Made by a program: the position numbers and the translations under genes. This document shows, piece after piece, positions 5,321 through 43,816 of a stretch of DNA of 44,099 nucleotides; the first letter of the stretch is position 1, and every line of letters starts with the position of its first letter. Origin of the DNA: an uncultured Erysipelotrichaceae bacterium (GTDB lineage: Bacteria; Bacillota_I; Bacilli_A; RF39; UBA660); the NCBI GenBank assembly GCA_902780395.1, contig CACZFH010000012.1, forward strand, positions 1 through 44,099. The letters run 5' to 3'. Below the pieces are notes generated by a model, which was given only the letters and a program-made list of their open reading frames with translations, was not told the DNA's origin and made no database searches.

Positions 5321-6809
5321 AAAAATTAATGGAATACTTCTTTTTGTCATAAGCTTATCATTACCATTTCTAACAGGCTTTACCAATATTTCATCAACTC
5401 CTAAAACTGTATATAGGGTATACTTAAAAGGAGAAGCTATAGGAGCTATAAAATCAAAAAAATCATTTGAAAATTATATTGACAAAAAGCAAGAAGAAAT
5501 CAAAAAGAAATATAATGTAAAAAAAGTATATGCTCCAGTAGATTTAGATATTGTTAAAGAGATTACTTTTGAAAGTACCATCAAGACAAATAAAGAAATA
5601 TATGATGAAATAAAGGATATATCACCATTTACTATTAATGGATACATCATAAAGATAAAAGGATTAGATACAAAAGATAGTGAAGGAAACGTAATAAAAG
5701 GACAAACTCAAAAAATATATGTTCTAGATAAATCTGTATTTACTAGTGCTATTGAAAAGACAGCCAAATCTTTTATTACCTCAGAAGCTTATGAAGCATA
5801 TGCCAATGATACACAAAAAGAGATTAAAGACACAGGAAAAATAATTGAAAACATCTACATTAAGAACAAAATAACCATCAAAAAAGATAAGATTCCCGTA
5901 GATAAAACAATCTATACAACTGAAGAAGAATTAAGTAAATATCTTTTATTTGGAACAACAGAACCACAAGCTACTTATATTATCCAAGATGGAGATACCA
6001 TTAGCGATGTGGCATTCAACAACAAAATATCAGTAGAAGAATTCTTAATTGCCAATCCAAATCTCCAAGGAGAAAATAGTTTATTATCTCCAGGTCAAGT
6101 AGTTACTTTAGGAATCTTAAAACCACAAGTAAGTGTAGTAGAAGAAGACCATATTGTAAAAGATGAAGAACAAAACTTTGCAACGAAGACAGAAGAAGAT
6201 CCTAATCAATATACAAATTATACAGTTATAAAGCAAGAAGGAATTAAAGGGCTAAATAGAGTTACTCAGAAAGTTCAAAAAGTTAATGGTGAAACAGTAT
6301 CTCTTGTAGGTCTTTCTCAAGAAGTATTAAAAGAGCCGGTAGAAGAAATAATTGTCAAAGGAACCAAACAACGTTCTTATAGTTGGTCTGGAGGATATGG
6401 AAACTTAATTATTACTAAGGGAATGTTTGGTTGGCCAGCAACCTGTTCAACCGTATCAAGTGGCTTCGGTTGGAGATGGGGAGTTCTTCATGATGGAACA
6501 GACATTGCTGGTTGTGGATACGGTTCAAATATATTTGCCGCAGAATCTGGAGAAGTTGTAACAGTAGGATATAAATATGATAATGGTCAATATATAACAA
6601 TAAGACATGATAATGGATATTATACAATGTATGCTCACCTATGTAGTGGCTGTACATATGTAAAACAAGGAGATAGGGTACAAAGAGGACAACCAATAGG
6701 AGGAATGGGACAAACTGGTTTTGCAACAGGAGTTCACTTACATTATGCTATTTGGACAGGTCCACCATATGCCGGAGGAACAGCGTTAAACGCTATGAAT
6801 TTTTATTAA
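5313..6809 (+). CDS. secreted LysM-G5-M23 peptidoglycan endopeptidase
   Basis: 498 residues. N-terminal signal or anchor segment (about residues 5-22). A unique region runs to about 215, then comes a LysM domain (TYIIQDGDTISDVAF, about 222-270), a G5 domain (about 300-350, EEIIVKGTK end) and a C-terminal M23 domain. The M23 zinc and catalytic residues are all present: HDGTD, YAHL and HLHYAI. It should cut cross-bridges of peptidoglycan outside the membrane, with LysM and G5 for wall binding. Start GTG 5313 overlaps dnaB by eight bases; AGGAGG lies just upstream (about 5299-5304). Confidence 0.9.
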   Translation: MNKKINGILLFVISLSLPFLTGFTNISSTPKTVYRVYLKGEAIGAIKSKKSFENYIDKKQEEIKKKYNVKKVYAPVDLDIVKEITFESTIKTNKEIYDEIKDISPFTINGYIIKIKGLDTKDSEGNVIKGQTQKIYVLDKSVFTSAIEKTAKSFITSEAYEAYANDTQKEIKDTGKIIENIYIKNKITIKKDKIPVDKTIYTTEEELSKYLLFGTTEPQATYIIQDGDTISDVAFNNKISVEEFLIANPNLQGENSLLSPGQVVTLGILKPQVSVVEEDHIVKDEEQNFATKTEEDPNQYTNYTVIKQEGIKGLNRVTQKVQKVNGETVSLVGLSQEVLKEPVEEIIVKGTKQRSYSWSGGYGNLIITKGMFGWPATCSTVSSGFGWRWGVLHDGTDIAGCGYGSNIFAAESGEVVTVGYKYDNGQYITIRHDNGYYTMYAHLCSGCTYVKQGDRVQRGQPIGGMGQTGFATGVHLHYAIWTGPPYAGGTALNAMNFY

Positions 6810-8708: not shown

Positions 8709-9448
8709 AAAAAATTTTTTTCAATAATTATTTAACATTTTGTATATATGCCTTAATAGGATGGCTATATGAAGTACTATGGTTATGGTTTGTAGTACCA
8801 CCTAAACAATTTGTAAATAGAGGAGTTCTAATAGGTCCATTCTTACCAATATATGGCTTTGGAATGTTAATTTTATTAGTTTGCTTAAAAAAATATCAAG
8901 CCAAGAGACATGAAATTAAAGAAATAAAATATATGGTTTTAGCAACTTCTATTATAACTACATTTATATATACTACAATTATAGAATATACAACTCTTAA
9001 AATATATAGTGTATTAGATTATCTAAAACAATATGGCTTAGGATTAATCATAACTAATGTAATAGTATTTGTAATAACATATTTACTAGTAAAGAAAACA
9101 AAGAATAAAAGCTTAAAAAAACTAGATACAACAATAGTACTAGTCTTTTTATGGATATGGTTAATAACAACCGGTATAGAATATATATCTCATTTTGTAA
9201 TAGATACTTTTTTTCATATATCTTTATGGGATTATACCAAAGATTTCTTAAACATAAATGCTAGAGTAAACTGGGATGCCTCAAGAAACTTTGCTATTGG
9301 AGGCACCTTTCTACTATATACTATCCAACCTTTGATTAATAAGTTATTAATAAAATTAAAAGAAAGAGAAAAATTATTGATAACAACCATCATTGGAATT
9401 CCTATGTTATTAGATTTTATTTTTCACGTGGTATTAAAAATTATTTAA
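8705..9448 (+). CDS. multi-pass membrane protein, CmpB/DUF1113-like
   Basis: 247 residues from ATG 8705. I prefer this start to the in-frame TTG at 8693 because GGAG (8695-8698) is correctly spaced before it and the ATGA overlap with ung is typical. Six or so hydrophobic segments are visible. The opening YLTFCIYALIGWLYEVLW and GPFLPIYGFG match the family annotated as putative ABC transporter permease CmpB (DUF1113), found widely in gut Firmicutes. No ATPase partner is adjacent, so transport is unproven. Confidence 0.75.
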   Translation: MKKIFFNNYLTFCIYALIGWLYEVLWLWFVVPPKQFVNRGVLIGPFLPIYGFGMLILLVCLKKYQAKRHEIKEIKYMVLATSIITTFIYTTIIEYTTLKIYSVLDYLKQYGLGLIITNVIVFVITYLLVKKTKNKSLKKLDTTIVLVFLWIWLITTGIEYISHFVIDTFFHISLWDYTKDFLNINARVNWDASRNFAIGGTFLLYTIQPLINKLLIKLKEREKLLITTIIGIPMLLDFIFHVVLKII

Positions 9449-13416: not shown

Positions 13417-15373
13417 CTTCCATGGCAATTTCATCAAAAGTAGGATCTGCATCTCTTGGCTCTGTTCCTTTTAGATAGTACATCAACTTCGTATTTTTAC
13501 TTGGATCAGGATCAATTTTACCAGAAATAGGATTTACTAAAAGAGCAACAACATTCTTAGGTTTTGAATACCATCCTTCATCAGCCGGAACATCTTTTTC
13601 AATTTTTTCAACAGTTTGATACCAAATGTTTTGAGCATATTTATAATCATGAGTAGTTAACTCTCTATTTTGATCATTTCCAACCCATACCGCACATACA
13701 ATATTAGAATTAAAACCAATATTCCAATTATCACTACTAGTAGTACCACTTTTTAATCCATAAGTATGAGTTAATTTAGCATTTAAACTAATAGCAGTTG
13801 GATAATTATAATCAATATATAATGGGTCATAAGTAGCAGTTAATAATTGATTTAATATAAAAACTAAACTAGGATTTAATACAAGTTCTTTATCATCTTT
13901 TTCTTGATATAAGACATTTCCTTCACCATCTTCCACTTTAATGATAAAGTGAGGAGTAACCTTATAACCTAAATTAGCAAAAGCAGAATAGCTAGCAGCC
14001 ATATGTATTAAACTAATTTCATTTGTACCTAGAGGTAAAGATGGAATACTTTCCAATTTTTCAGTAATTCCAATTCTTCTAGCAATTTGAATTAAAGCAT
14101 CATACCCTAAAAACATATGAGTCTTAACAGCATAAACATTTTCACTATAAGCAATGGCAGTACCCATAGAAATAGGTTTATTACCATAAGTATCATGATA
14201 ATTATTTGGTGTATATAATTCCCCATTTTCTAAAGGAAAAGAAGTTTTTTCACTTAAAAAAGCTGAACTAGCTGTAAAGCCATTTTCTAAAGCTGCATAA
14301 TATAAAAATGGTTTCATAGTAGAACCGACTTGTCTTTGAGCAAAAATTGCTCGATTATAAGATGATTGATTGTAGTCTCTTCCACCAACTAAAGCTAATA
14401 CTCTACCAGTATTAGGATCCATCACAACACTAGCTGTTTCTAAATCAGAATCATTAGGAAATGCATTCTTAATATTATCTTCCAAAATACTTTGAGCCTC
14501 ATAGTGAAGAGAAGTATAAATCTTTAAACCATGAACTTCCCCATAATTCTTAGGAATTGTTTCAATAGAGTCTAATTCATCCATCACAGCATCTTGAAAA
14601 TAATGGATACTAGATAAATAATTATTATCATCTTTTCCAATAAAATGAAGTTCCTCTTGATAAGCTTTTTCCTTATCTAAAGAAGAAATTACACCATTCT
14701 TTTCCATCATATTAAGAACTAATAATTGTCTTTTTTTAGCTTCGTTATAATGAAGAAGCGGCGAATAATTACTAGGAGCTTTAGGAATACCTGTTAATAT
14801 AGCAGCCTCTGCCAAAGATAAATCACTAGCCGATTTTCCAAAATAGAATTTACTAGCATTTTCAATTCCATATTTTCCATGACCATAATTAATAGTGTTT
14901 AAATATCCTTCTAATATTTCATCTTTACTATATTGCATTTCCATTTTTAAAGTATACCAAGCTTCCTCCCATTTTCTTTTCCAAGTTTTATCAAAATTTA
15001 AAAATAAATTTTTAGCATATTGCTGAGTTATAGTAGAAGCCCCTTGTTCCATACTCCCGTTTTTAATATTATGAATAAAAGCTTTTCCAATTCTTAAAAA
15101 ATCAAATCCAAAATGATGATAATAATTCTTATCTTCTGTGTATATAGTAGCTTGAATTAAATATTGGCTAATATCAGCAAGATTAACCCATTCCTTAGCT
15201 TCACTACCCTTAAAAAAAGCTATATTTTGATCATCATAAATCATAATTTGATTAGCTCCATTAATAGTAACTTTAGGGGATAGTTTTAAGTATAGGAAAA
15301 CTCCACCTACTACTACTAGAAAAAGTAGAAAAGAACAAACAAAAAATTTCTTTAGTATTCGTATTATTATCAT
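13406..15373 (-). CDS. class A penicillin-binding protein (glycosyltransferase + transpeptidase)
   Basis: 655 residues from ATG 15373, where a GGTGA site and the signal-anchor MIIIRILKKFF begin; the upstream extension is probably not translated. One transmembrane anchor, then a GT51 domain with EDKNYYHHFGFD, QGASTITQQYAKNLFL and the KDEILEGYLNTINYG block. The transpeptidase domain has the catalytic SxxK (GSTMKPFLYY), SEN and KSGTTSSDNW motifs. It polymerises lipid II and cross-links peptidoglycan on the outer face. A PBP1A/PonA-like enzyme. Monocistronic and divergent from the ywiB-argS unit. Confidence 0.93.
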   Translation of the reverse strand: MIIIRILKKFFVCSFLLFLVVVGGVFLYLKLSPKVTINGANQIMIYDDQNIAFFKGSEAKEWVNLADISQYLIQATIYTEDKNYYHHFGFDFLRIGKAFIHNIKNGSMEQGASTITQQYAKNLFLNFDKTWKRKWEEAWYTLKMEMQYSKDEILEGYLNTINYGHGKYGIENASKFYFGKSASDLSLAEAAILTGIPKAPSNYSPLLHYNEAKKRQLLVLNMMEKNGVISSLDKEKAYQEELHFIGKDDNNYLSSIHYFQDAVMDELDSIETIPKNYGEVHGLKIYTSLHYEAQSILEDNIKNAFPNDSDLETASVVMDPNTGRVLALVGGRDYNQSSYNRAIFAQRQVGSTMKPFLYYAALENGFTASSAFLSEKTSFPLENGELYTPNNYHDTYGNKPISMGTAIAYSENVYAVKTHMFLGYDALIQIARRIGITEKLESIPSLPLGTNEISLIHMAASYSAFANLGYKVTPHFIIKVEDGEGNVLYQEKDDKELVLNPSLVFILNQLLTATYDPLYIDYNYPTAISLNAKLTHTYGLKSGTTSSDNWNIGFNSNIVCAVWVGNDQNRELTTHDYKYAQNIWYQTVEKIEKDVPADEGWYSKPKNVVALLVNPISGKIDPDPSKNTKLMYYLKGTEPRDADPTFDEIAMEEKE

Positions 15374-30565: not shown

Positions 30566-33058
30566 ATGAATATATTAAAACAGATATTTGACCATGAGTA
30601 TAAAGAATTAAGAAGATTTAGAACTATTGCGGACAAAGTAATGAGTTTAGAAGAAGAATATGCCAATTTAACAGATACCGAACTACAAGACAAAACTGAG
30701 CAATTTAAAGATAGATTAAGTAAAGGAGAATCCTTAGAAGATATTTTAGTAGAAGCCTTTGCTACCGCTAGAGAAGCATCTTTTCGTGTAATTGGTGAAA
30801 GACATTTCTATGTACAAATCTTAGGTGGTTTAGCTATTCATTATGGAAATATAGCTGAGATGAAAACAGGTGAAGGAAAAACTTTAACATCAGTATTACC
30901 AGCCTACTTGAATGCCTTAACTGGTGAAGGAGTACATATAATAACAGTTAATGAATATCTTGCCCGTCGTGATGCTGAATGGATGGGTGGAATTCATAGA
31001 TTTTTAGGTTTGACTGTAGGAGTTAACACTAGAGATTTATCATCAAAGGACAAACAAGAAGCATATAATTGTGATATTATGTATTCTACCAATAATGAAA
31101 TTGGCTTTGATTATCTTAGAGATAACATGGTAGTAAAAAAAGAAGACAGAGTACAAAGAAAACTAAATTTTGCTATTATCGATGAGGTTGACTCAATTTT
31201 AATCGATGAAGCAAGAACACCATTAATAATATCAGGTGGAGAAATGGCTAATGCCAATTTATATATCCAAGCTGATCAATATGCCAAAAGCTTAAAAATA
31301 GAAAAAGATTATATCTATGATGAGAAGACAAAAAGTGTTAATTTAACAGAAGATGGAGCCGATAAAGCTGAAAAAATGTTCCATATAGACAATTTATACG
31401 ATATAAATAATGCTACCTTGCTACATTTTATCAATCAAGCCCTACGAGCAAATTATGCTATGAAACGTGATGTTGACTACGTAGTGCAAGATAATGAGAT
31501 AGTAATTGTTGATCAGTTTACAGGACGTTTAATGAAGGGAAGAGCTTATTCAGATGGTCTTCATCAAGCTATAGAAGCCAAAGAAGGAGTAAATATCAAC
31601 CAAGAAACAAAAACTCTCGCAACAATTACCTTCCAAAATTTATTCCGTATGTATAAGAAACTATCAGGAATGACTGGTACAGCAAAAACAGAAGAAGAAG
31701 AATTTAGAAATATCTATAACATGTATGTAATTGAAATACCAACAAATAAAGAAGTAATAAGAATAGATGCCCCAGACTTAGTATATGCTACCAAAGAAGC
31801 AAAATATAAAGCAATTATTGAATTTGTTAAAGAAAAATATCAAGAAGGACAACCAGTACTAATTGGTACAATAGCTATTGAAACAAGTGAATTGATTAGT
31901 AATCTATTAAAACAAGCTCATATACCACATGAAGTATTAAACGCTAAGAATCATGAAAGAGAAGCCGAAATAATCTCTAAAATAGGATTAAACAAGTCAG
32001 TAACAATTGCCACCAACATGGCTGGTCGTGGAACCGATATTAAACTATCAGATGAAATAAAAGCTCTTGGAGGATTATGCGTAGTTGGTACAGAAAGACA
32101 TGAATCACGTCGTATTGATAATCAGCTACGTGGACGATCAGGACGTCAAGGAGATCCAGGATATACCCAATTCTTTGTATCAATGAAAGATGACCTAATG
32201 GTCAGATTTGGATCTGACAGAATCGGTGCTATGATGGAAAACATGGGATTAGGAGACCAAGCAATAAGAAGTAAAGCCTTTACAAAATCAATTGGTACAG
32301 CTCAAAAAAGAGTAGAAGGAAATAACTTTGATATTCGTAAAAATTTACTACAATATGATGATGTTATGAATAGTCAAAGAGAAATAATCTATGAAAAAAG
32401 AAATAGAATACTAGATAATGAATCCATTCATGAAATGGTACTAACTACCTTTAGACATCATATAGAAGATTTAGTAAAATCTCACATTGCTCCAGAGGGA
32501 TATTTGACAGAAGATGATTATAAAGATATCATGGAATTTGCCAATGAAAACTTACTAAAGAAAGACTTAAAAATAAAAGATATAGAGGGACAAAAAGAAG
32601 AGGAATTAATAGATTATTTATCAAAACTAGTAATTAAAGAATATGAAGATAAAATAAAAGATATACCAGAAGAAGTGACACAAGAATTTGAAAAAGTTAT
32701 AACTCTACAGGTATTAGATAATTATTGGATGGAACATATCAACACCATGTCTCACTTAAGAGAAGGTATTCACTTAAGAGGATATGCCCAAGAAGACCCA
32801 TTAAGAGCTTATACTATGGAAGGATTTGATTTGTTTGACTCCATGCTTCAAAAAATTGATAAAGACGTATCAATCTTCTTATTAAAAGCCGAAATAAGAC
32901 AAAATATAGAAAGAAAAGAACCAGCAAAGAAATTACTAATTAACGATTCAGAAGACAAAGTATCTAAAAAACAACCAGTAAAAAAACAAAAGATAGGAAG
33001 AAATGACCCATGCCCATGTGGCTCAGGGAAAAAATACAAACAATGCCATGGTAAGTAG
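30566..33058 (+). CDS. secA: preprotein translocase ATPase SecA
   Basis: 830 residues from ATG 30566; AAGGAG (30552-30557) is eight bases upstream, while the earlier ATG 30560 is only two bases from it. Walker A MKTGEGKT (about 100), IIDEVDSILIDEARTPLIIS, ATNMAGRGTDIKL and the C-terminal zinc SEC-C motif GRNDPCPCGSGKKYKQCHG are all present. It drives secreted proteins through SecYEG. In Bacillus prfB follows; here an integrase island follows. Confidence 0.97.
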   Translation: MNILKQIFDHEYKELRRFRTIADKVMSLEEEYANLTDTELQDKTEQFKDRLSKGESLEDILVEAFATAREASFRVIGERHFYVQILGGLAIHYGNIAEMKTGEGKTLTSVLPAYLNALTGEGVHIITVNEYLARRDAEWMGGIHRFLGLTVGVNTRDLSSKDKQEAYNCDIMYSTNNEIGFDYLRDNMVVKKEDRVQRKLNFAIIDEVDSILIDEARTPLIISGGEMANANLYIQADQYAKSLKIEKDYIYDEKTKSVNLTEDGADKAEKMFHIDNLYDINNATLLHFINQALRANYAMKRDVDYVVQDNEIVIVDQFTGRLMKGRAYSDGLHQAIEAKEGVNINQETKTLATITFQNLFRMYKKLSGMTGTAKTEEEEFRNIYNMYVIEIPTNKEVIRIDAPDLVYATKEAKYKAIIEFVKEKYQEGQPVLIGTIAIETSELISNLLKQAHIPHEVLNAKNHEREAEIISKIGLNKSVTIATNMAGRGTDIKLSDEIKALGGLCVVGTERHESRRIDNQLRGRSGRQGDPGYTQFFVSMKDDLMVRFGSDRIGAMMENMGLGDQAIRSKAFTKSIGTAQKRVEGNNFDIRKNLLQYDDVMNSQREIIYEKRNRILDNESIHEMVLTTFRHHIEDLVKSHIAPEGYLTEDDYKDIMEFANENLLKKDLKIKDIEGQKEEELIDYLSKLVIKEYEDKIKDIPEEVTQEFEKVITLQVLDNYWMEHINTMSHLREGIHLRGYAQEDPLRAYTMEGFDLFDSMLQKIDKDVSIFLLKAEIRQNIERKEPAKKLLINDSEDKVSKKQPVKKQKIGRNDPCPCGSGKKYKQCHGK

Positions 33059-33276: not shown

Positions 33277-34584
33277 ATGGTAAACGTAAGAAAAAGAGGA
33301 AAAGTATATGAATACAGATTTGAAACTGCTTCAGTAGATGGTACGAGAAAATGGATTACTAAATCAGGATTTCGTACAAAACAAGAGGCACTTAATCAAG
33401 GTGCACTAGATTACAATGATTATTATAGGATTGGAAGAGTAAAAAGAAACAAAGAAATGTCATATGCAGACTATTTAGATTTTTGGATAGACACTTATTG
33501 CAACTTTAATCTAAAATATTCAACTATAGTTACTTATTTAAACATAATGAAAAACTATCTTAAGCCAATGTTAGGTGGGTATTCATTATCACAAATTGAT
33601 ACCCAAATGCTACAGGAATTCATAAATAAGATATATGTAGAAAAGAATTTATCTAAATGGTATTTAAAAGGAATAATGAAAGTTATTAAAGGATCTCTTA
33701 AATATGCATGTTACACAGTAAATTATATTAATGAGAATCCAGCAGAAAGGGTTCATATACCAAGATATGAAATTGTTGCAGGAGATCCGGCACATATCTT
33801 TACTCAAGAAGAAATAGAAAGGATTTTAGATAGATTCAAAAACACACCACATATTTACTATGCATTTTTAACTGCATATTATACAGGAATGAGAACATCA
33901 GAAGTGTTTGGTTTAACATGGGATTGTGTTGATTTTGATAATAAGACAATTACAATTAATAAAAACATTATAAGAAAGAACAAATTTGGATTACCTAAAC
34001 GATATAAATCAACTAAAGGACATTCTATTGAAGTATGGAGCTATGGAACATGTAAGAATCCTCAAAGCCAAAGAACAATATCCATTGGAGACACACTTGT
34101 AGAATCATTAAAAGAGTTTAAAAGATTACAAGAAGAAAATAGAAGATATTATGGAGATAATTACCTAAAACATTATGAAAAAAGAGTAATAAGTGAGTAT
34201 ACACAAAGACCTGAAATAAAAATAGTGGATGCCAAGGCTGAATTAAATGTAGATTTACCTGAAGCACAATTAGTATTTGTTAGTCCTAATGGATTCTTTA
34301 GAGGAACTGAATCCACTAGATATGCATTTAAAGTAATAAATTATGAATTAGGAATACCTTGTAGATTTCATGACTTTAGAGATACACATGCAACAAGGTT
34401 AATAGAACAAGGAGCAGATATAAAAGCAGTATCAAAGAGATTAGGACATTCAACTATAATGACTACATATAACATTTATGTAAGAGTGACTGATAAAATG
34501 GAAACTGAAACTGTAAAAACTTTTGAAGGATATGCCAATACATTAGATATCCCCAAAACTGTGGATAAACCATATTTAGACTAA
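33277..34584 (+). CDS. tyrosine integrase 1
   Basis: 435 residues. N-terminal AP2-like arm-binding domain (VRKRGKVYEYRFETASVDG), SAM-like core-binding domain (about 65-165), catalytic domain with TGMRTSEVFGLTW (Arg I), HDFRDTHATRL (His-x-x-Arg), LGHSTIMTTYNIY (Tyr). It is the first island gene behind secA and the likely recombinase for this end. Its N-terminal half is clearly paralogous to integrase 2 at 37458. An insertion of about 40 residues separates Arg I from the HxxR box. AGAGGAGAG precedes the ATG. Confidence 0.93.
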   Translation: MVNVRKRGKVYEYRFETASVDGTRKWITKSGFRTKQEALNQGALDYNDYYRIGRVKRNKEMSYADYLDFWIDTYCNFNLKYSTIVTYLNIMKNYLKPMLGGYSLSQIDTQMLQEFINKIYVEKNLSKWYLKGIMKVIKGSLKYACYTVNYINENPAERVHIPRYEIVAGDPAHIFTQEEIERILDRFKNTPHIYYAFLTAYYTGMRTSEVFGLTWDCVDFDNKTITINKNIIRKNKFGLPKRYKSTKGHSIEVWSYGTCKNPQSQRTISIGDTLVESLKEFKRLQEENRRYYGDNYLKHYEKRVISEYTQRPEIKIVDAKAELNVDLPEAQLVFVSPNGFFRGTESTRYAFKVINYELGIPCRFHDFRDTHATRLIEQGADIKAVSKRLGHSTIMTTYNIYVRVTDKMETETVKTFEGYANTLDIPKTVDKPYLD

Positions 34585-34654: not shown

Positions 34655-35626
34655 ATGAATAACGAATTAATTAATAATTTTTTAGATAAAAGTGAAGAAG
34701 CGTTTTTAATGGCAATAGAAATATATAATAAACCTACCATTAAATATAGATTAGAAGGTTTTGCTTTTTTTATATGTAATGCGTGGGAATTACTACTAAA
34801 AGCAAAGATGCTACAAAATGGGGAAAGTATATATTATCCAGATAAGCCTAACAGAACTATTTCATTATCAAATTGCGTTGCCCACATTTTTACAAACGAT
34901 AAAGATCCAGTTAGAAAAAATTTAGAAATAATAATAAGTTTAAGAAATACATCAACACATTTTGTAATTAAAGAAATGGATTCAATTTATCTTCCTTTTA
35001 TGCAAGCAAATGTTTTAAATTATTCTCAAAAATTGTTTGATTTTTTTGGAAGAGATATAACAGAAAAAATTAATAGTTCATTTATGACATTAGTAATTAA
35101 TAATGAATCAATATCAGATGAAGAAATTCTTAGTAGATATGGAGACAATATTTTAACTAGATATAATAAAGTAAAAAATGAAACAGAACAAATAATTACA
35201 GAAAATTCAAATGAAAAGCTTGCAATTCAAATAGACTTAAATGTAAAAATAGTAAAAGACAAAGATGAAGCAAAAACAACATTTAGAATTGCAAAAGATG
35301 GAGAAGATCCGGTAAGAATAATAAAAGAAATAAAGGATACAAATTTAACACATTGTTATAAACAAAAAAGAATAAGAGAAATAGTAGAAGATAATTTAAA
35401 AAGAAAAGGAATTACTATAAAAATAACCCAATATGATTTAGGTTTATTGTGTGATAAGTTTGATTTAAAAGGAAATGAAAAGTATTATTATAAACATGCC
35501 TTAACAAATAGTTGGGGATGCAGTCAGCAATTAGTAGACTTTCTAACAGAATTATTTATAAAAAATCCAAATATAATTAATGAATTAAAAGAAGAAAAAA
35601 GTGAAAAGAAAGAAATTCAAGCATAA
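34655..35626 (+). CDS. DUF3644 protein with a HEPN-like motif, possible defence or toxin gene
   Basis: 323 residues. The N-terminal half (about 1-150) matches what I know of DUF3644: EAFLMAIEIYNKPTIKYRLE, FFICNAWELLLKAKML, then FTNDKDPVRKNLEIIISLRNTSTHF. RNTSTH fits the Rx4-6H signature of HEPN ribonucleases. The C-terminal part (about 240-323) has a compact basic domain. DUF3644 genes are often in restriction-modification or other defence settings. Here the gene is cargo between two integrases, with AAGGAGG upstream, no partner protein in its operon, and a convergent structured RNA overlapping its stop codon. RNase or defence function is inferred. Confidence 0.72.
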   Translation: MNNELINNFLDKSEEAFLMAIEIYNKPTIKYRLEGFAFFICNAWELLLKAKMLQNGESIYYPDKPNRTISLSNCVAHIFTNDKDPVRKNLEIIISLRNTSTHFVIKEMDSIYLPFMQANVLNYSQKLFDFFGRDITEKINSSFMTLVINNESISDEEILSRYGDNILTRYNKVKNETEQIITENSNEKLAIQIDLNVKIVKDKDEAKTTFRIAKDGEDPVRIIKEIKDTNLTHCYKQKRIREIVEDNLKRKGITIKITQYDLGLLCDKFDLKGNEKYYYKHALTNSWGCSQQLVDFLTELFIKNPNIINELKEEKSEKKEIQA

Positions 35627-36743: not shown

Positions 36744-37235
36744 ATGAATGATGAATATATAAGAATATTCGCAATCATGCCTAGTGAGATCTATAAGACA
36801 AAAGATTTAACTAGCGAAGAAAAATTAATCGCAGAGAGAATTACTGCTCTTTGCAAAAAGGAGGGATATGCTTGGATAAGCAATAAAGCATTAGCTGATA
36901 TGTATGGAATAAGAGTTGATACAGTTTCAAAACATATAAAACATTTAATTGAATATGGATACATTAAATGTATATATGGGAAGAATGGTAATGGTAATAA
37001 AAAAAGAACCATATATTTATCCAATAACATATGGGACAATGAGGCAATAGTTAATAGTTTAGATAATCAATCTAATATAGGTTATTCTTCCAAATATAAT
37101 AATAAATATAATAATAAAAAAGAATATGAAGATAATACTCCTGATTGGATTAAACATCCTGAAATGTGTAAGTCAGAGCCTATGACTCCAGAAGAAATTA
37201 AAGAATTTGAAGAACTACTTGCGGAGTTTAAATAA
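36744..37235 (+). CDS. winged helix-turn-helix protein of the mobile element
   Basis: 163 residues. N-terminal wHTH (about 20-85: LTSEEKLIAERITALCKKEGYAWISNKALADMYGIRVDTVSKHIKHLIEYGYI), similar to the helix-turn-helix domain of replication initiators and regulators on Firmicutes mobile elements. A low-complexity Asn/Lys/Tyr linker (YNNKYNNKK) and an acidic tail follow. It is first of a tight series: its stop TAA overlaps the ATG of the xis-like gene by one base. Replication or regulation cannot be told apart from sequence. Confidence 0.72.
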   Translation: MNDEYIRIFAIMPSEIYKTKDLTSEEKLIAERITALCKKEGYAWISNKALADMYGIRVDTVSKHIKHLIEYGYIKCIYGKNGNGNKKRTIYLSNNIWDNEAIVNSLDNQSNIGYSSKYNNKYNNKKEYEDNTPDWIKHPEMCKSEPMTPEEIKEFEELLAEFK

Positions 37236-37465
37236 TGGAAGATAGATTAATATACACAGTACAGGAAGTAGCTAGTATTCTTCATTCTAGCCCAAATTAT
37301 ATTTATGAATTAATTAGAAAAGGATATTTACCTGCAATTAAATTAGGAAGTTTAAAAGTCTTAAAATCTACACTAGAAAGATTCTTAATTCAAAACGAAG
37401 GAAAAGATTTATCTGATTTAAACAATATTAAAAAGATCATTATTGTAGAGGTAGATAATGAGTAA
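37235..37465 (+). CDS. excisionase-like HTH protein
   Basis: 76 residues with a MerR-type HTH_17 fold: YTVQEVASILHSSPNYIYELIRKGYLPAIKLGSLKVLKS. Such small proteins beside a tyrosine integrase act as recombination directionality factors (Xis). It overlaps integrase 2 by eight bases, which supports that role. Confidence 0.82.
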   Translation: MEDRLIYTVQEVASILHSSPNYIYELIRKGYLPAIKLGSLKVLKSTLERFLIQNEGKDLSDLNNIKKIIIVEVDNE

Positions 37466-38741
37466 GATTAATATTAGAAAAAGAGGAAATTATTATGAAT
37501 ATAGAATTGAAATAGCAAGAGTAGATAATAAAAGACAATGGTTAAGCAAATCAGGTTTTAGAACAAAGCCAGAAGCTCAAGAAGCAGGAGTACAAGCTTA
37601 CAATGAATATATCAATGCAGGGATACCTTTTAAACAATGTGATTTATCTTATTCAGATTATCTTGACTATTGGTTAGAAAATTATTGTAAAAACAATCTA
37701 AAATATAACACAATTCAAACCTATCAAATCATAATTAATAAATATTTAAAGAAAGGTATAGGAAAATATAAACTATCAACTATAACAGGAGTTGCATTAA
37801 ATTCCTATATCACTGAATTAGTAAATAATTATAATCATTCAAGAACTTATTATAAAAACATATTAAAAGTTATTAAAGGATCATTTAGAGACGCATGTAA
37901 TTTATATGGATTTATTAAATATAATCCAGCATTAACATTAAGATTACCTAAAATTGATGAAATAGAAGAAGAAAGAAGACATGTTTATACAAAAGAAGAA
38001 ATAGACTTAATTCTAGAAAAATTTAAGGATAATGCAACATTTATAGCCTCATTCTTAACATCATGTTTTACTGGTATGAGAACTGGAGAAGTATTTGCTC
38101 TTACATGGGAAGATATTGATTTAGAAAATGGAATAATAGATGTTCAACATAGTGTTTATGATAAACCAAAAGACAAAGATGGTAGATGGTTTTTAGGAAC
38201 AACTAAAACTATATCAGGAAAAAGAAAAATCTATATAGGAGAAACATTAGTAAAAGCATTAAAGAACTTCAAAGAAAGACAAGAAGAGTTAAAGAAATTA
38301 TTTGGTAAAGATTATAAATATTACCATTTAGAAGAAATTAAAACTGAATCGGGTAAAATAACAGATAAAAGAATAGTTCTTAATGACGATTATTCAAAAG
38401 AAATACTTAATCTAGTATTTACAAAAGATGATGGAACTTATGTAGGAACTGATATACCTAAGTATCCATTTAAGATAATACATAATGTATTAGGAATTAA
38501 AAAATGTAGATTCTATGATTTAAGAGGAACATATGCAACGAAAGTATTAAATAGTGGAACAGAGATTAAAGATGTAGCCAACTTATTAGGACATAGAAAT
38601 GTAGAAACAACTGAAAATTATTACATTAGAAGTATAGAAGACAACAAAAGAAATGCAGTTAATGAATTTGATAGTAAAAATACTACTGAGGTTATAAAAA
38701 GTGTTATAGGATTTCAAATTAAAGAAGGTGAAACTGTATGA
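37458..38741 (+). CDS. tyrosine integrase 2
   Basis: 427 residues, same plan as integrase 1: INIRKRGNYYEYRIEIARVD arm-binding domain, core-binding domain, catalytic TGMRTGEVFALTW, box II FYDLRGTYATKV (Tyr in place of His at HxxR, a change also seen in other members), LGHRNVETTENYYIR. It overlaps xis upstream and mobV downstream by a few bases, so xis-int-mobV form one unit. Being internal to the island, it may belong to a second element nested or joined to the first. Confidence 0.92.
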   Translation: MSKINIRKRGNYYEYRIEIARVDNKRQWLSKSGFRTKPEAQEAGVQAYNEYINAGIPFKQCDLSYSDYLDYWLENYCKNNLKYNTIQTYQIIINKYLKKGIGKYKLSTITGVALNSYITELVNNYNHSRTYYKNILKVIKGSFRDACNLYGFIKYNPALTLRLPKIDEIEEERRHVYTKEEIDLILEKFKDNATFIASFLTSCFTGMRTGEVFALTWEDIDLENGIIDVQHSVYDKPKDKDGRWFLGTTKTISGKRKIYIGETLVKALKNFKERQEELKKLFGKDYKYYHLEEIKTESGKITDKRIVLNDDYSKEILNLVFTKDDGTYVGTDIPKYPFKIIHNVLGIKKCRFYDLRGTYATKVLNSGTEIKDVANLLGHRNVETTENYYIRSIEDNKRNAVNEFDSKNTTEVIKSVIGFQIKEGETV

Positions 38742-39919
38742 ATTATGCAATATTCAGAAGTGAACCTATTTATACCTTAAATGATCTTGCTCAAATTGGT
38801 TCTCACAATAAAAGAGAGAAGAAAGCATATAAATCGAATCCAGATATAGACTTATCAAAAACTAAAGATAATGTAGAACTTGTTCCATTAAATATGAAAT
38901 ATGTTAAAGGTTTTTATGAAATAACAAAAGAATATAAAAAAGAACATGAAGAAAGAATGAAAAATGAAAGAGAAGATAGAAGAAGAACATTCAGACAAAT
39001 GGTAGATAAATCCAAAAGCGTTGTAGCAGATGAAATGATATTTACTGCTTCTCATAACTTCTTTAATGATATGCCTAAAGAAAAAGTACTAGAATGGTCA
39101 GAGTATTGTATGGCATTTGTAAAAGAATATTTAGGTTATAAAGATGAGCAAATATTACATGCAACATTACATATGGATGAAAAGACACCTCATATACATT
39201 GTGTAGTAGTTCCTTTGATAAAAAAAATTGATAAGAGAACAAATACAGAACGATATACCATCTCTAAAAAGCAATATATCCACGATAAAGAACATTTAAG
39301 TGAATTACAAGATAAATATTGTGAATTATTAAATCTAGGTGGATTTGCTTTAGAAAGAGGTCAAAAACATAGTGCAGTAGAACACTTAAATATGAAAGAA
39401 TTTAAAAGAGCAACACAAGAAGTAAATAAAGAATTAACTAGTAGAAGTAACAAATTAGATCAAGCAATTACCGATTTAGAAATAAAAATGGAATCTAATA
39501 AACCTGTATTGTTTGAAAAAGAATCAATTAAGATAAAAAAAGATACATTTGATAGTATGAATAAAGTAATAGAAGAATCTAAAAAGATAAGTGAAATGAA
39601 GCCTAAATTAGATAATACATACAAAGCAATGAAAGAACAAATAAGTACATATTCAAAAGTACAACAAGAAAACTATGATTTAAAGGATGAAAATGAAACA
39701 TTAAAATTTCAAAACACAAAGTTATCAAATAGAGTATCAATACTTGAAAATACAATAACTGTTTTAAAAAGGACAATAGAGAGAGTATCAAATTTCTTCT
39801 ATCATTTAGTAGCAGATGGATTAATACCAAAGAAAAAGGAAGAAGAAATAAATAATATATTAGGTAATGATTATAAACCATATAAAGAAAAGAGTAGAGA
39901 TGATGGTCTTTCTTTATAA
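38738..39919 (+). CDS. MobV-family relaxase (Mob/Pre)
   Basis: 393 residues. N-terminal MNYAIFRSEPIYTLNDLAQI, a central catalytic motif LHMDEKTPHIHCVVVPL (the His-rich motif of MobV), then FALERGQKH, and a long coiled-coil C-terminal half. MobV proteins nick oriT and pilot single-stranded DNA into a conjugation pore supplied by another element. No coupling protein or type IV secretion genes are present, so this is a mobilizable, not self-transmissible, element. Starts with a four-base overlap with integrase 2. The cognate oriT is just downstream. Confidence 0.93.
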   Translation: MNYAIFRSEPIYTLNDLAQIGSHNKREKKAYKSNPDIDLSKTKDNVELVPLNMKYVKGFYEITKEYKKEHEERMKNEREDRRRTFRQMVDKSKSVVADEMIFTASHNFFNDMPKEKVLEWSEYCMAFVKEYLGYKDEQILHATLHMDEKTPHIHCVVVPLIKKIDKRTNTERYTISKKQYIHDKEHLSELQDKYCELLNLGGFALERGQKHSAVEHLNMKEFKRATQEVNKELTSRSNKLDQAITDLEIKMESNKPVLFEKESIKIKKDTFDSMNKVIEESKKISEMKPKLDNTYKAMKEQISTYSKVQQENYDLKDENETLKFQNTKLSNRVSILENTITVLKRTIERVSNFFYHLVADGLIPKKKEEEINNILGNDYKPYKEKSRDDGLSL

Positions 39920-39920
39920 G

Positions 39921-40003
39921 ACTATCTTTATGACAAGATAGTAACACACTATGATATTGGCAGAGCCAATAACAATGTGTGCCAAGGATAAACCCTTTGG
40001 AAT
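39921..40003 (-). other. oriT: origin of transfer (oriT), MobV/pMV158 type
   Basis: The minus strand contains TAGTGTGTTA (plus 39942-39951), which fits the pMV158-family nic consensus TAGTGNG/TTA; the nick would fall between plus positions 39944 and 39945. It is flanked by hairpins: ACTATCTT/AAGATAGT (39921-39928 with 39935-39942) and TATTGGC-AGA-GCCAATA (39955-39971), the latter enclosed by CACAC/GTGTG. ATAG/CTAT pairing would put nic in a loop. A third stem, CCAAGG with CCTTTGG, lies at about 39983-40001. The site is behind mobV and on the opposite strand. Confidence 0.75.
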
Positions 40004-40143
40004 CCCATTAAGCACCAATACTACAAACTTTTCATCATCGAGATTCATAAAAAAGAAAAATACTATCGCCACTTTCATCAGTAAACTGACAAAACGTGCC
40101 ACGTATTTTCATTCTAAATCAAGTAATAATAATACTTGATTTA
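40004..40143. repeat. non-coding segment next to oriT with palindromes
   Basis: No convincing gene: open frames on both strands (about 62 codons each) lack ribosome-binding sites. It contains TCAGT/ACTGA, the palindrome ACGTGCCACGT and an 11-bp stem TAAATCAAGTA/TACTTGATTTA (40115-40125 with 40133-40143). Noticeably richer in G+C than its surroundings up to about 40110. May be the rest of a transfer or single-strand origin. Confidence 0.45.
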
Positions 40144-40167
40144 TATCGGAAAATAGTAATATTGTGA

Positions 40168-40197
40168 TTAGATTAAAATAAAAAAATATGTTATAAT
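40168..40197 (+). promoter_or_regulatory. promoter of the membrane protein pair
   Basis: TTAGAT (40168-40173), 18-base spacer and an extended -10 TGTTATAAT (-10 at 40192-40197). Confidence 0.6.
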
Positions 40198-40242
40198 TAT
40201 ATATGTAAGATAAATAGCAATCTGAAAGTGAGTTGAGTTTAT

Positions 40243-40812
40243 GTGGATGGACAATTAAGTGAAATAATTAAACCATTTAAAGTATTGTTTATATTTTTAA
40301 TAATTGAGTTTTTATTTGTTTTAATTTTTTTTACAGCTTTATATAGTGGTTATGATAAAAATCTTTTTGAAATAAAATTAAATAATACTCTTATGAATTG
40401 TTATTACTCAGAGGAATATACTAATGGATTACTTATTAATGCAGGAACTAGTGGTTATAATTCAGTAGAAAATAGAATAAATGAAATTCAATTAAATAAT
40501 CCTATTAAATTAGACGTTAATGAATATGAAGTTTATTATAAAAATGGTTATCGTAAAGCAGATACTAATGGTTGGTTAAGAGAAGATAATTTAAAATATT
40601 CCTTAGTCAAAAATTCAAAATTAAAATTAATAATTAAGAGAAAAAATAAATTATTATATGATGGTGATTATATTAGTGATTTGAGCAACATTATTAATGA
40701 AAAAGGAAGATATTATATACATATTTATTCTGTTAGAAAAGATGGTTTATTAACCTCTGTTAAAACGCATATTAGTTTTAATGTAATTGTTGGAGGTGGT
40801 AATCATGAATAA
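40243..40812 (+). CDS. hypothetical single-pass membrane protein 1
   Basis: 189 residues from GTG 40243 (the ATG at 40241 is out of frame and stops after five codons). One N-terminal transmembrane helix (about 12-34, KVLFIFLIIEFLFVLIFFTA), then an extracytoplasmic beta-rich domain of about 150 residues with one Cys. No family recognised. It overlaps the next gene by eight bases, so the two probably form a complex. The Shine-Dalgarno is weak. Confidence 0.65.
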   Translation: MDGQLSEIIKPFKVLFIFLIIEFLFVLIFFTALYSGYDKNLFEIKLNNTLMNCYYSEEYTNGLLINAGTSGYNSVENRINEIQLNNPIKLDVNEYEVYYKNGYRKADTNGWLREDNLKYSLVKNSKLKLIIKRKNKLLYDGDYISDLSNIINEKGRYYIHIYSVRKDGLLTSVKTHISFNVIVGGGNHE

Positions 40813-41808: not shown

Positions 41809-41943
41809 ATGAAATATATTTTAAAGGGATTAGGGTGCGCAAATTGTGCAGGTAAAATGGAGGAAAAAATAAATAGACTAGATGAAATTAAAACTGCGAG
41901 CATAAACTTTACTACAAAAACATTAATGTTTGAAGTAAAATGA
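41809..41943 (+). pseudogene. truncated heavy-metal-associated (HMA) domain of cadA
   Basis: 44 codons from ATG 41809 (AAGGAG at 41797). MKYILKGLGCANCAGKMEEK is the metal-binding GxxCxxC loop of an HMA domain, but the frame ends at TGA 41941, after about 44 of the usual 68-70 residues. The ATPase frame continues one base over (+1) directly at 41942 with an acidic run. The second helix and last strand of HMA are missing. Could make a tiny soluble protein or be a dead N-terminus. Confidence 0.75.
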
Positions 41944-42124
41944 AGAAGATGATGATGACGATGATGAAGATGAAGGAAAAATAGCACTAGCTAAAATTGC
42001 TATTAGTGGAATACTATGCCTGTTAGGAATTTTCTTAAATATAAATGAGAAGTTTAAGTTTGTAATATTCTTAATATCATATATAATAATTGGATATGAT
42101 ATTGTTTTTAAAGCAATTAAAAAT

Positions 42125-43816
42125 ATGTTTAAAGGAAAGGTGTTTGATGAAACCTTTTTAATGAGTATAGCAACAATAGGTGCTATGCTAATTGGAGAAT
42201 TTAAAGAAGCAGTAGCTGTAATGTTATTTTATAAAATCGGAGAATTTTTCCAAGATAAAGCCGTTGACCATTCAAGAAAGTCTATTGCTGAATTAATGGA
42301 TATAAGACCAGATTATGCTAATTTAAAAATAAAAGATAAAATCGAAAAAGTATCTCCTGATGAAGTAAATATTGGAGATATTATAGTTGTAAAGACAGGA
42401 GAAAAAATACCACTAGATGGTGTAATTATTGAGGGCAGTTCATTTGTAGATACAGTAGCACTTACTGGAGAGTCTGTTCCGAGAGAAGTAAAAGTAAATG
42501 ATGAAGTATTAAGTGGAATGATTAATACAAGAAGTTTATTAACTATACGAGTAACAAAAGCATTTGAAAATTCTACTGTATCAAAAATATTAAAATTAGT
42601 AGAAAATACTTCAAACAGAAAAGCAAAAACAGAAAAATTTATAACGAAATTTGCTAAGATATATACACCAATAGTTGTAGCATTAGCTGTGCTAATTGCA
42701 ATACTTCCACCGCTCATAGTTCCTAATGCGACTTTTTCAGAATGGATTTATAGAGCATTAGTATGTTTAGTTATATCTTGCCCTTGTGCTCTTGTTATAT
42801 CTATTCCTTTAAGTTACTTCGGTGGAATAGGTTGTGCTTCAAAAAAAGGAATATTATTAAAAGGCTCAAATTATTTAGAGGCATTAAATAATGTAGATAC
42901 AATAGTATTTGATAAGACAGGAACATTAACAAAAGGAGTGTTCAAAGTAACTGAAATTGTACCAATATTAAACCATACAAAGGAAGAAATACTTGAATAT
43001 TGTGCTTATGCAGAGTCATTTTCTAATCACCCAATAGCTACTTCAATATTAAATGAGTATAATAAAATGGTAGATAAAGAAAAAGTAAAAGATTATGAAG
43101 AAATATCAGGATATGGTATAAAAGCCAATATCTTTGGTAAAGAAGTTTTAGTTGGAAGTCACAAATTATTTAATGATGAAAAGATAGAATATAGTAAAAA
43201 GAAAATCAATGGAACTACCGTACATTTAGCAATAAATAAAGAATATTGTGGATATATTGTAATTTCTGACATAATAAAAGAGGATTCTAAAGATGCAATA
43301 AGAAAATTAAAAGAACTAGGAATAAGAAAAACAGTAATGCTAACAGGAGATAATAAAACAGTTGCAGAAGAAATCGCTAAAGAACTAAAAGTAGATGATT
43401 ACAAAGCAGAATTGTTACCAGTTCAAAAAGTAGAAGAAGTTGAAAAACTATTACAAGATAAAAAATCAAATCAAAATTTAGTATTTGTTGGAGATGGAAT
43501 TAATGATGCTCCAGTAATTACAAGAGCAGATATTGGTATCAGTATGGGAGGAATAGGATCAGATTCAGCAATAGAGGCATCAGATGTTGTAATAATGACA
43601 GATGAAACATCAAAAATAGCAACTGCAATAAAAATAGCGAAAAAAACAAGAAAAATAGTAGTATTAAATATTACTTTAGCAATGTTAATAAAAATAATTG
43701 CAATATCATTAGGAATTGTAGGAATAACATCTATATGGCAAGCAGTTATTGCAGATGTTGGGGTAACCATTGTAGCAGTAATAAATTCTTTGAGGTGTTT
43801 AAATATAAAAGATTAA
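42125..43816 (+). pseudogene. cadA: P1B-type Zn/Cd-transporting ATPase, N-terminus disrupted
   Basis: 563 residues from the first ATG, but the open frame reaches back to 41942 and encodes the acidic run and the first two membrane helices (ISGILCLLGIFLNI...). No ATG, GTG or TTG lies before 42125, so they need a frameshift from the HMA frame. The core is intact: TGES, SCPCALVISIPL, DKTGTLTKG, a HP motif (SNHPIATS), MLTGDN, GDGINDAP and a last helix with ADVGVTIVAVINS. These point to the ZntA/CadA (Zn, Cd, Pb) group. Called disrupted; an active shortened or frameshifted pump is possible. Confidence 0.8.

Follow-up and report, generated by a model that had tools for sequence, protein, structure and literature searches.

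Between the 3′ end of secA and the end of the contig, the window (the whole 44,099-nucleotide stretch of DNA that was analysed) carries two tyrosine integrase genes (int1 and int2), genes for a replication-initiator-like and an excisionase-like protein, a MobV relaxase gene (mob) and, behind mob on the opposite strand, an inverted-repeat region with the sequence of an origin of transfer (oriT). The coordinates are collected in Table 1. In the complete relative L021, the secA-end direct repeat stands at 2787 and at 13627, where one integrase gene adjoins secA, another precedes mob, and cargo lies past oriT. The element thus has integrases of its own, and attachment repeats are present at both ends in L021; the attR of the window copy would lie past the contig end. 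No T4SS gene was found among the ORFs read from secA to the contig end, where the window copy is incomplete at the right, or in the complete L021. Other parts of the genome contain VirD4-like and VirB4-like genes, so a helper could act in trans. The element has the appearance of an integrative and mobilizable element (IME) inserted at secA, which would be mobilized by such a helper. Two further observations concern integration: int1 and int2 are related tyrosine integrases within one element, a pair that recurs in several relatives, and in L049 secA-end repeats lie in series at 6607 and 8809, a pattern suggestive of elements accreting in tandem at that site.

Table 1. Features of the putative IME at secA and of its oriT region, in window coordinates
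Feature	Position	Strand	Basis and remarks
secA 3′ end, probable attL	about 33014–33058	plus	secA-end repeat also at the far end of L021, L036 and L049
Tyrosine integrase int1, adjoining the secA attachment site	33277–34584	plus	PF00589, 2.1e-25; same place in L020, L021, L031, L032, L036 and L051
HTH_36 / replication-initiator-like protein	36744–37235	plus	domain match
Excisionase-like HTH_17 protein	37235–37465	plus	domain match
Tyrosine integrase int2	37458–38741	plus	PF00589, 1.3e-16; 4-bp overlap with mob
MobV (MOBV) relaxase, 393 aa	38738–39919	plus	PF01076, 3e-27; PDB 4LVI (MobM), 1.1e-13; alignment
Post-nick hairpin, ACTATCTT-GTCATA-AAGATAGT	39921–39942	minus	repeat listing, fold, relatives' stems; leading side of the T-strand
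nic decamer, TAGTGTG/TTA	39942–39951	minus	predicted nick between 39945 (G) and 39944 (T); 0 mismatches to TAGTGTGTTA
IR1/IR3-like inverted repeat of oriT, GCACAC...TAGTGTG, apical stem ATTGGC-TCT-GCCAAT	39945–39982	minus	repeat listing, single-strand fold, relatives' stems
CCAAAGG/CCTTGG hairpin	about 39982–40000	minus	5′ of the main repeat on the T-strand; counterpart in other MobV clades, CTAAGG...CCTTAG
Left arm of terminator-like hairpin, GCACC...GGTGC-TTTTTT	40012–40029	plus	alignment of relatives; right arm and T run absent in the window copy
Hairpin H, CGCCACTTTCAT-(covarying stem)-ACAAAACGTG	40060–40109	plus	outer portion of the oriT region, conserved across three MobV clades

The product of mob scored 96.2 bits against Mob_Pre, compared with a curated cut-off of 25.5, and its His23 and HxDExxPHxH motif (H145-D147-E148-P151-H152-H154) are invariant in an alignment with pMV158-like and staphylococcal MobV relaxases. 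The closest plasmid relaxase found was that of Priestia megaterium plasmid pELP1.24a_6 (L128), whose MobV N-terminal domain is 45% identical. This plasmid also has an inverted repeat of the form CACAC...GAGTGTG/TT but, unlike the window, carries its oriT 72 nt upstream of mob and on the mob strand.

Within 39915–40010 the minus strand contains CCAAAGGGTTTATCCTTGGCACACATTGTTATTGGCTCTGCCAATATCATAGTGTG/TTACTATCTTGTCATAAAGATAGT, where the slash marks the predicted nick. The nic is an exact match to the pMV158-family nick GTGTG/TT as it appears in passages of PMC5863519 and PMC5090054. The bare 10-mer TAGTGTGTTA has six copies in the genome when no partner arm is required, and on its own is weak evidence for an oriT. 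The full pattern, GCACAC-N14-40-TAGTGTGTTA, occurred at one site in the 1.8-Mb assembly, while reversed-pattern controls gave zero; the only other near-match to nic in the window, at 9007, has one mismatch. The main inverted repeat terminates at the nick (arms 39945–39961 and 39965–39981, 82% complementary), and the post-nick hairpin is a perfect 8-bp stem (arms 39921–39928 and 39935–39942). The single strand of the oriT was predicted to fold at −18.2 kcal/mol, compared with −6.1 ± 2.1 kcal/mol for shuffled sequences (z = −5.65; 0/200 shuffles as good). The relatives showed 13 different main stems and 6 different post-nick stems; the arms of a locus paired 100% with each other in both cases, against 58% and 44%, respectively, after swapping arms between loci, indicating that the stems are kept by compensatory changes. 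The nic core stayed invariant while the stems varied. A chance origin of the match was ruled out by the fold z-score, the uniqueness in the genome and this covariation. An earlier note on this DNA had proposed that the minus-strand segment fits the pMV158-family nic consensus, and the exact decamer, its uniqueness with the partner arm in the assembly and the fold bear this out. Judged by its sequence, the 39921–40003 region is a real MobV-type oriT, at which nicking would occur between 39945 and 39944.

The same note had likened three stems around nic to IR1–IR3 of pMV158, which holds in part. Three hairpins are present, and the inverted repeat that precedes and reaches the GTGTG/TT nick corresponds closely to IR1/IR3. 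According to passages of PMC5863519, however, IR1/IR3 and IR2 of pMV158 overlap and the arms of IR2 flank the nick, whereas the 39921–39942 hairpin lies wholly 3′ of the nick, separate from the first, and has no arm in common with the main repeat. A mutually exclusive, overlapping pair like IR1/IR3 and IR2 was thus not found, and the IR1/IR2/IR3 switch is not reproduced in the window.

Because the site lies directly behind the last gene, the hairpins might instead belong to the int-mob operon as its terminator or as an RNA structure, the match to nic being incidental. A terminator-like hairpin (GCACC...GGTGC-TTTTTT) does come next in relatives, so their oriT would sit towards the 3′ end of the operon, ahead of the terminator; both operon and terminator are putative assignments. 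The nic hairpins themselves are not followed by a T run, however, and their nic core is invariant while the stems vary. The whole segment also stays intact 0.8–4.7 kb from mob in the five loci where genes intervene (L022, L024, L091, L196 and L197). An Rfam scan of 39880–40260 gave nothing near a gathering threshold, and a terminator scan of the window with a short-loop rule called none, the GCACC...GGTGC-type hairpin not being listed by it. We consider this reading highly improbable.

The segment could also be a site for integrase and excisionase or for replication (attP, dso or sso), given that int2 and an xis-like gene are adjacent, that att and replication sites have inverted repeats too, and that hairpin H could be a single-strand origin. 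This is very unlikely in view of three results. The nic heptamer together with the CACAC arm is a MOBV signature, and a site of the same kind lies upstream of mobV in seven plasmids; the element has its att repeat at secA and not at oriT; and the layout is retained where no int2 match precedes mob (clade members L024, L091, L097, L196 and L197). The int2-mob overlap itself is kept in many clade members but not all, and since the coupling is missing from some of them, the reversed layout is not simply forced by an int-mob operon.

The position of the oriT with respect to its gene differs from that in pMV158. Passages of PMC5863519 place the pMV158 oriT upstream of mobM, in a region that contains the promoter Pmob1 and adjoins Pmob2. 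In the window, as the earlier note had recognized, the oriT is behind the MobV gene and on the opposite strand: the predicted nick falls 25 nt past the mob stop (gene end 39919), and the oriT is neither upstream of mob, nor on its coding strand, nor overlapping a mob promoter. No better oriT was found upstream of mob, the start of which is overlapped by int2. The layout was then found in 30 distinct related loci with relaxases 50–97% identical, mostly from gut Bacilli MAGs and some of them near-identical to one another, and none of the 30 had an upstream oriT. The segment is thus present beside homologous mobV genes, so that neither of the two outcomes named in the note as refuting its reading was observed. 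The mob-to-oriT distance is 24–50 nt in most loci, the exceptions being the five with intervening genes. In L098 the oriT is in place but its nic has diverged, and in L101 there was no oriT within 3.4 kb behind mob; several clade contigs stop short of the expected oriT position.

In contrast, all 7 of the 7 MobV plasmids with a detectable oriT (L128, L130–L133, L135 and the pMV158-like L136, our stand-in for pMV158 in sequence comparison) carry it 56–81 nt upstream on the mob strand, which agrees with the note's statement that pMV158 and most of its relatives have oriT upstream in the mob direction. In a relaxase tree the 25 behind-oriT loci included all group together and plasmid L128, with its upstream oriT, branches next, although the deep branches are long, which leaves the root uncertain and some joins possibly spurious. 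The reversed layout is a lineage-wide form of the MobV arrangement and the opposite of the one seen in the plasmids examined; the clade that has it is known so far from the host family alone. No description of a MobV oriT behind its own gene was found in titles, abstracts and passages of the open-licence literature. A search for MobV oriTs restricted to the upstream region and the same strand would miss or misread this whole gut Bacilli clade.

A further conserved structure, hairpin H, lies outside the three hairpins. Its flanks are invariant (on the T-strand, CACGTTTTGT...ATGAAAGTG), and its apical stem is paired in 99.6% of cells, with 32 two-sided changes compared with 10.2 in shuffles. It occurred 14 times in 392 genomes of the phylum sample, always in the host family, and these copies adjoin a MobV gene or oriT except for one at a contig end. 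MobV elements carry one or two copies, in fixed orientation to nic (the window; L020–L058, L110–L125 and L213). No Rfam family passed its gathering threshold for the hairpin H region. One viral contig with hairpin H was found, where it adjoins a MobV gene; no relative of the relaxase was found in viral contigs. Hairpin H is part of the oriT region, and no description of it was found in the parts of the literature searched.

The genome's two remaining MobV loci, on contigs C8 and C9 (L120 and L124 clades), carry hairpin H as well, and it links their oriT regions to that of the window. All three clades share one order along the T-strand within a region of ~250 nt: H, a hairpin of CCTTAG-, CCTTGG- or CCCTTAA-type, the main repeat, and nic. 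The C8 and C9 loci are alike in this module but have their mob on the T-strand with oriT upstream, and their nic variants are TAGGGGG/TTA and TAGTGAG/ATAGG, with nick positions assigned by analogy. After the module, mob comes next on the T-strand itself in 16/16 occurrences of the two other clades, whereas in the window clade it comes next on the complementary strand in 20/20, two loci with two H copies being counted twice. Since the module order is identical in three clades and the direction of mob is opposite, mob is flipped relative to an intact oriT module.

The consequence of this layout for transfer depends on the strand. In conjugation, the relaxase-bound 5′ end leads into the recipient. 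According to PMC5090054 the relaxase remains on the 5′ end made by the nick, and PMC5863519 gives the mobM coding strand as the transferred strand of pMV158, with oriT upstream; mob is therefore 3′ of the nick and enters first in pMV158. In the window the T-strand would have its 5′ end at 39944 and head to lower coordinates through mob (39919 down to 38738), as the template strand of mob rather than its coding strand as in pMV158. The earlier note had argued that the reversed order would place mob on the side of nic opposite to that in pMV158, changing whether it enters first or last. Entry on the trailing side, with mob last into the recipient, would have its basis in the reversal relative to pMV158, but position and strand are both reversed and the two cancel out, so that along the transferred strand mob is still found 3′ of the nick and would still be the first gene in; a change in entry order would need one reversal alone. 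The polarity of repeat 5′, then nick, then mob is identical in the window, pMV158 and two other MobV clades. Trailing entry is accordingly extremely unlikely, and this part of the note does not stand unless the relaxase cuts the plus strand. Such a single reversal does occur in L187 and L192, where an oriT (CACACGACTTTGC..GCAAAGTGTAGTGTG/TTA) precedes the MobV gene but lies on the other strand, so that mob would enter last. In L188, L189 and L190 an oriT of the form CACACGACTTTGC...TAGTGTGTTA stands with no MobV match in the fetched stretch; these are possibly relaxase-less mobilizable segments or have distant relaxases.

On our preferred reading, which we hold to be very probable, the site is the transfer origin of a MOBV IME, nicked at 39945/39944, from which mob would enter first as template strand, in a clade whose mob has been flipped against the module. 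The relaxase would bind the IR1/IR3-like hairpin of the minus strand and cut TAGTGTG/TTA between 39945 and 39944. Held covalently on the 5′ end at 39944, it would pilot the strand through a helper conjugation pore, with mob entering first, followed by int2, xis, the rep-like gene and the secA-proximal integrase, and the cargo beyond oriT last. Expression of mob would come from an operon with int2, and MobM-type autoregulation at an oriT-overlapping promoter would not be possible for the window mob. The layout may have arisen once, or a few times early, by inversion of mob against the otherwise unchanged ~250-nt module.

Compared with pMV158 and MobM (MOBV1), the window thus keeps the nic GTGTG/TTA, a CACAC arm forming an IR1/IR3-like hairpin 5′ of the nick, an HUH-motif MOBV relaxase and, as predicted, a leading mob. 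The clade offers a natural experiment on what is indispensable in the pMV158 design: the leading position of mob would be kept, while the overlap of oriT and promoter, the proposed basis of MobM self-regulation, is lost. Among integrative elements, IMESag-rpsI of Streptococcus agalactiae, as described in passages of PMC5090054, is similar in being integrative and in having a MobV relaxase and a small oriT that contains inverted repeats. IMESag-rpsI lacks T4SS genes, and none was found among the ORFs read in the window copy, whose right end is outside the contig. In IMESag-rpsI oriT precedes mob, which is followed by ssoA, and integration is at rpsI, unlike the window with oriT behind mob and secA as attachment site.

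The most open lead is hairpin H, which is a part of the oriT region that can be tested experimentally. We regard it as unlikely that the flip, by which the incoming single strand would be the template for the mob-int2 operon, is accompanied by a signalling role of hairpin H on that strand, whether as single-strand origin, as single-strand promoter or by docking a relaxosome protein. If so, integrase and relaxase could be expressed early in the recipient.

Two other genes of the window were noted. At 34655–35626 there is a gene with DUF3644 and EC042_2821-like restriction-endonuclease domains, in a stretch that is missing from the close relative L051 (34585 joined to 35813). At 41810–43816 there is a metal P-type ATPase, from whose frame a short N-terminal metal-binding-like ORF is cut off by a stop at ~41941.
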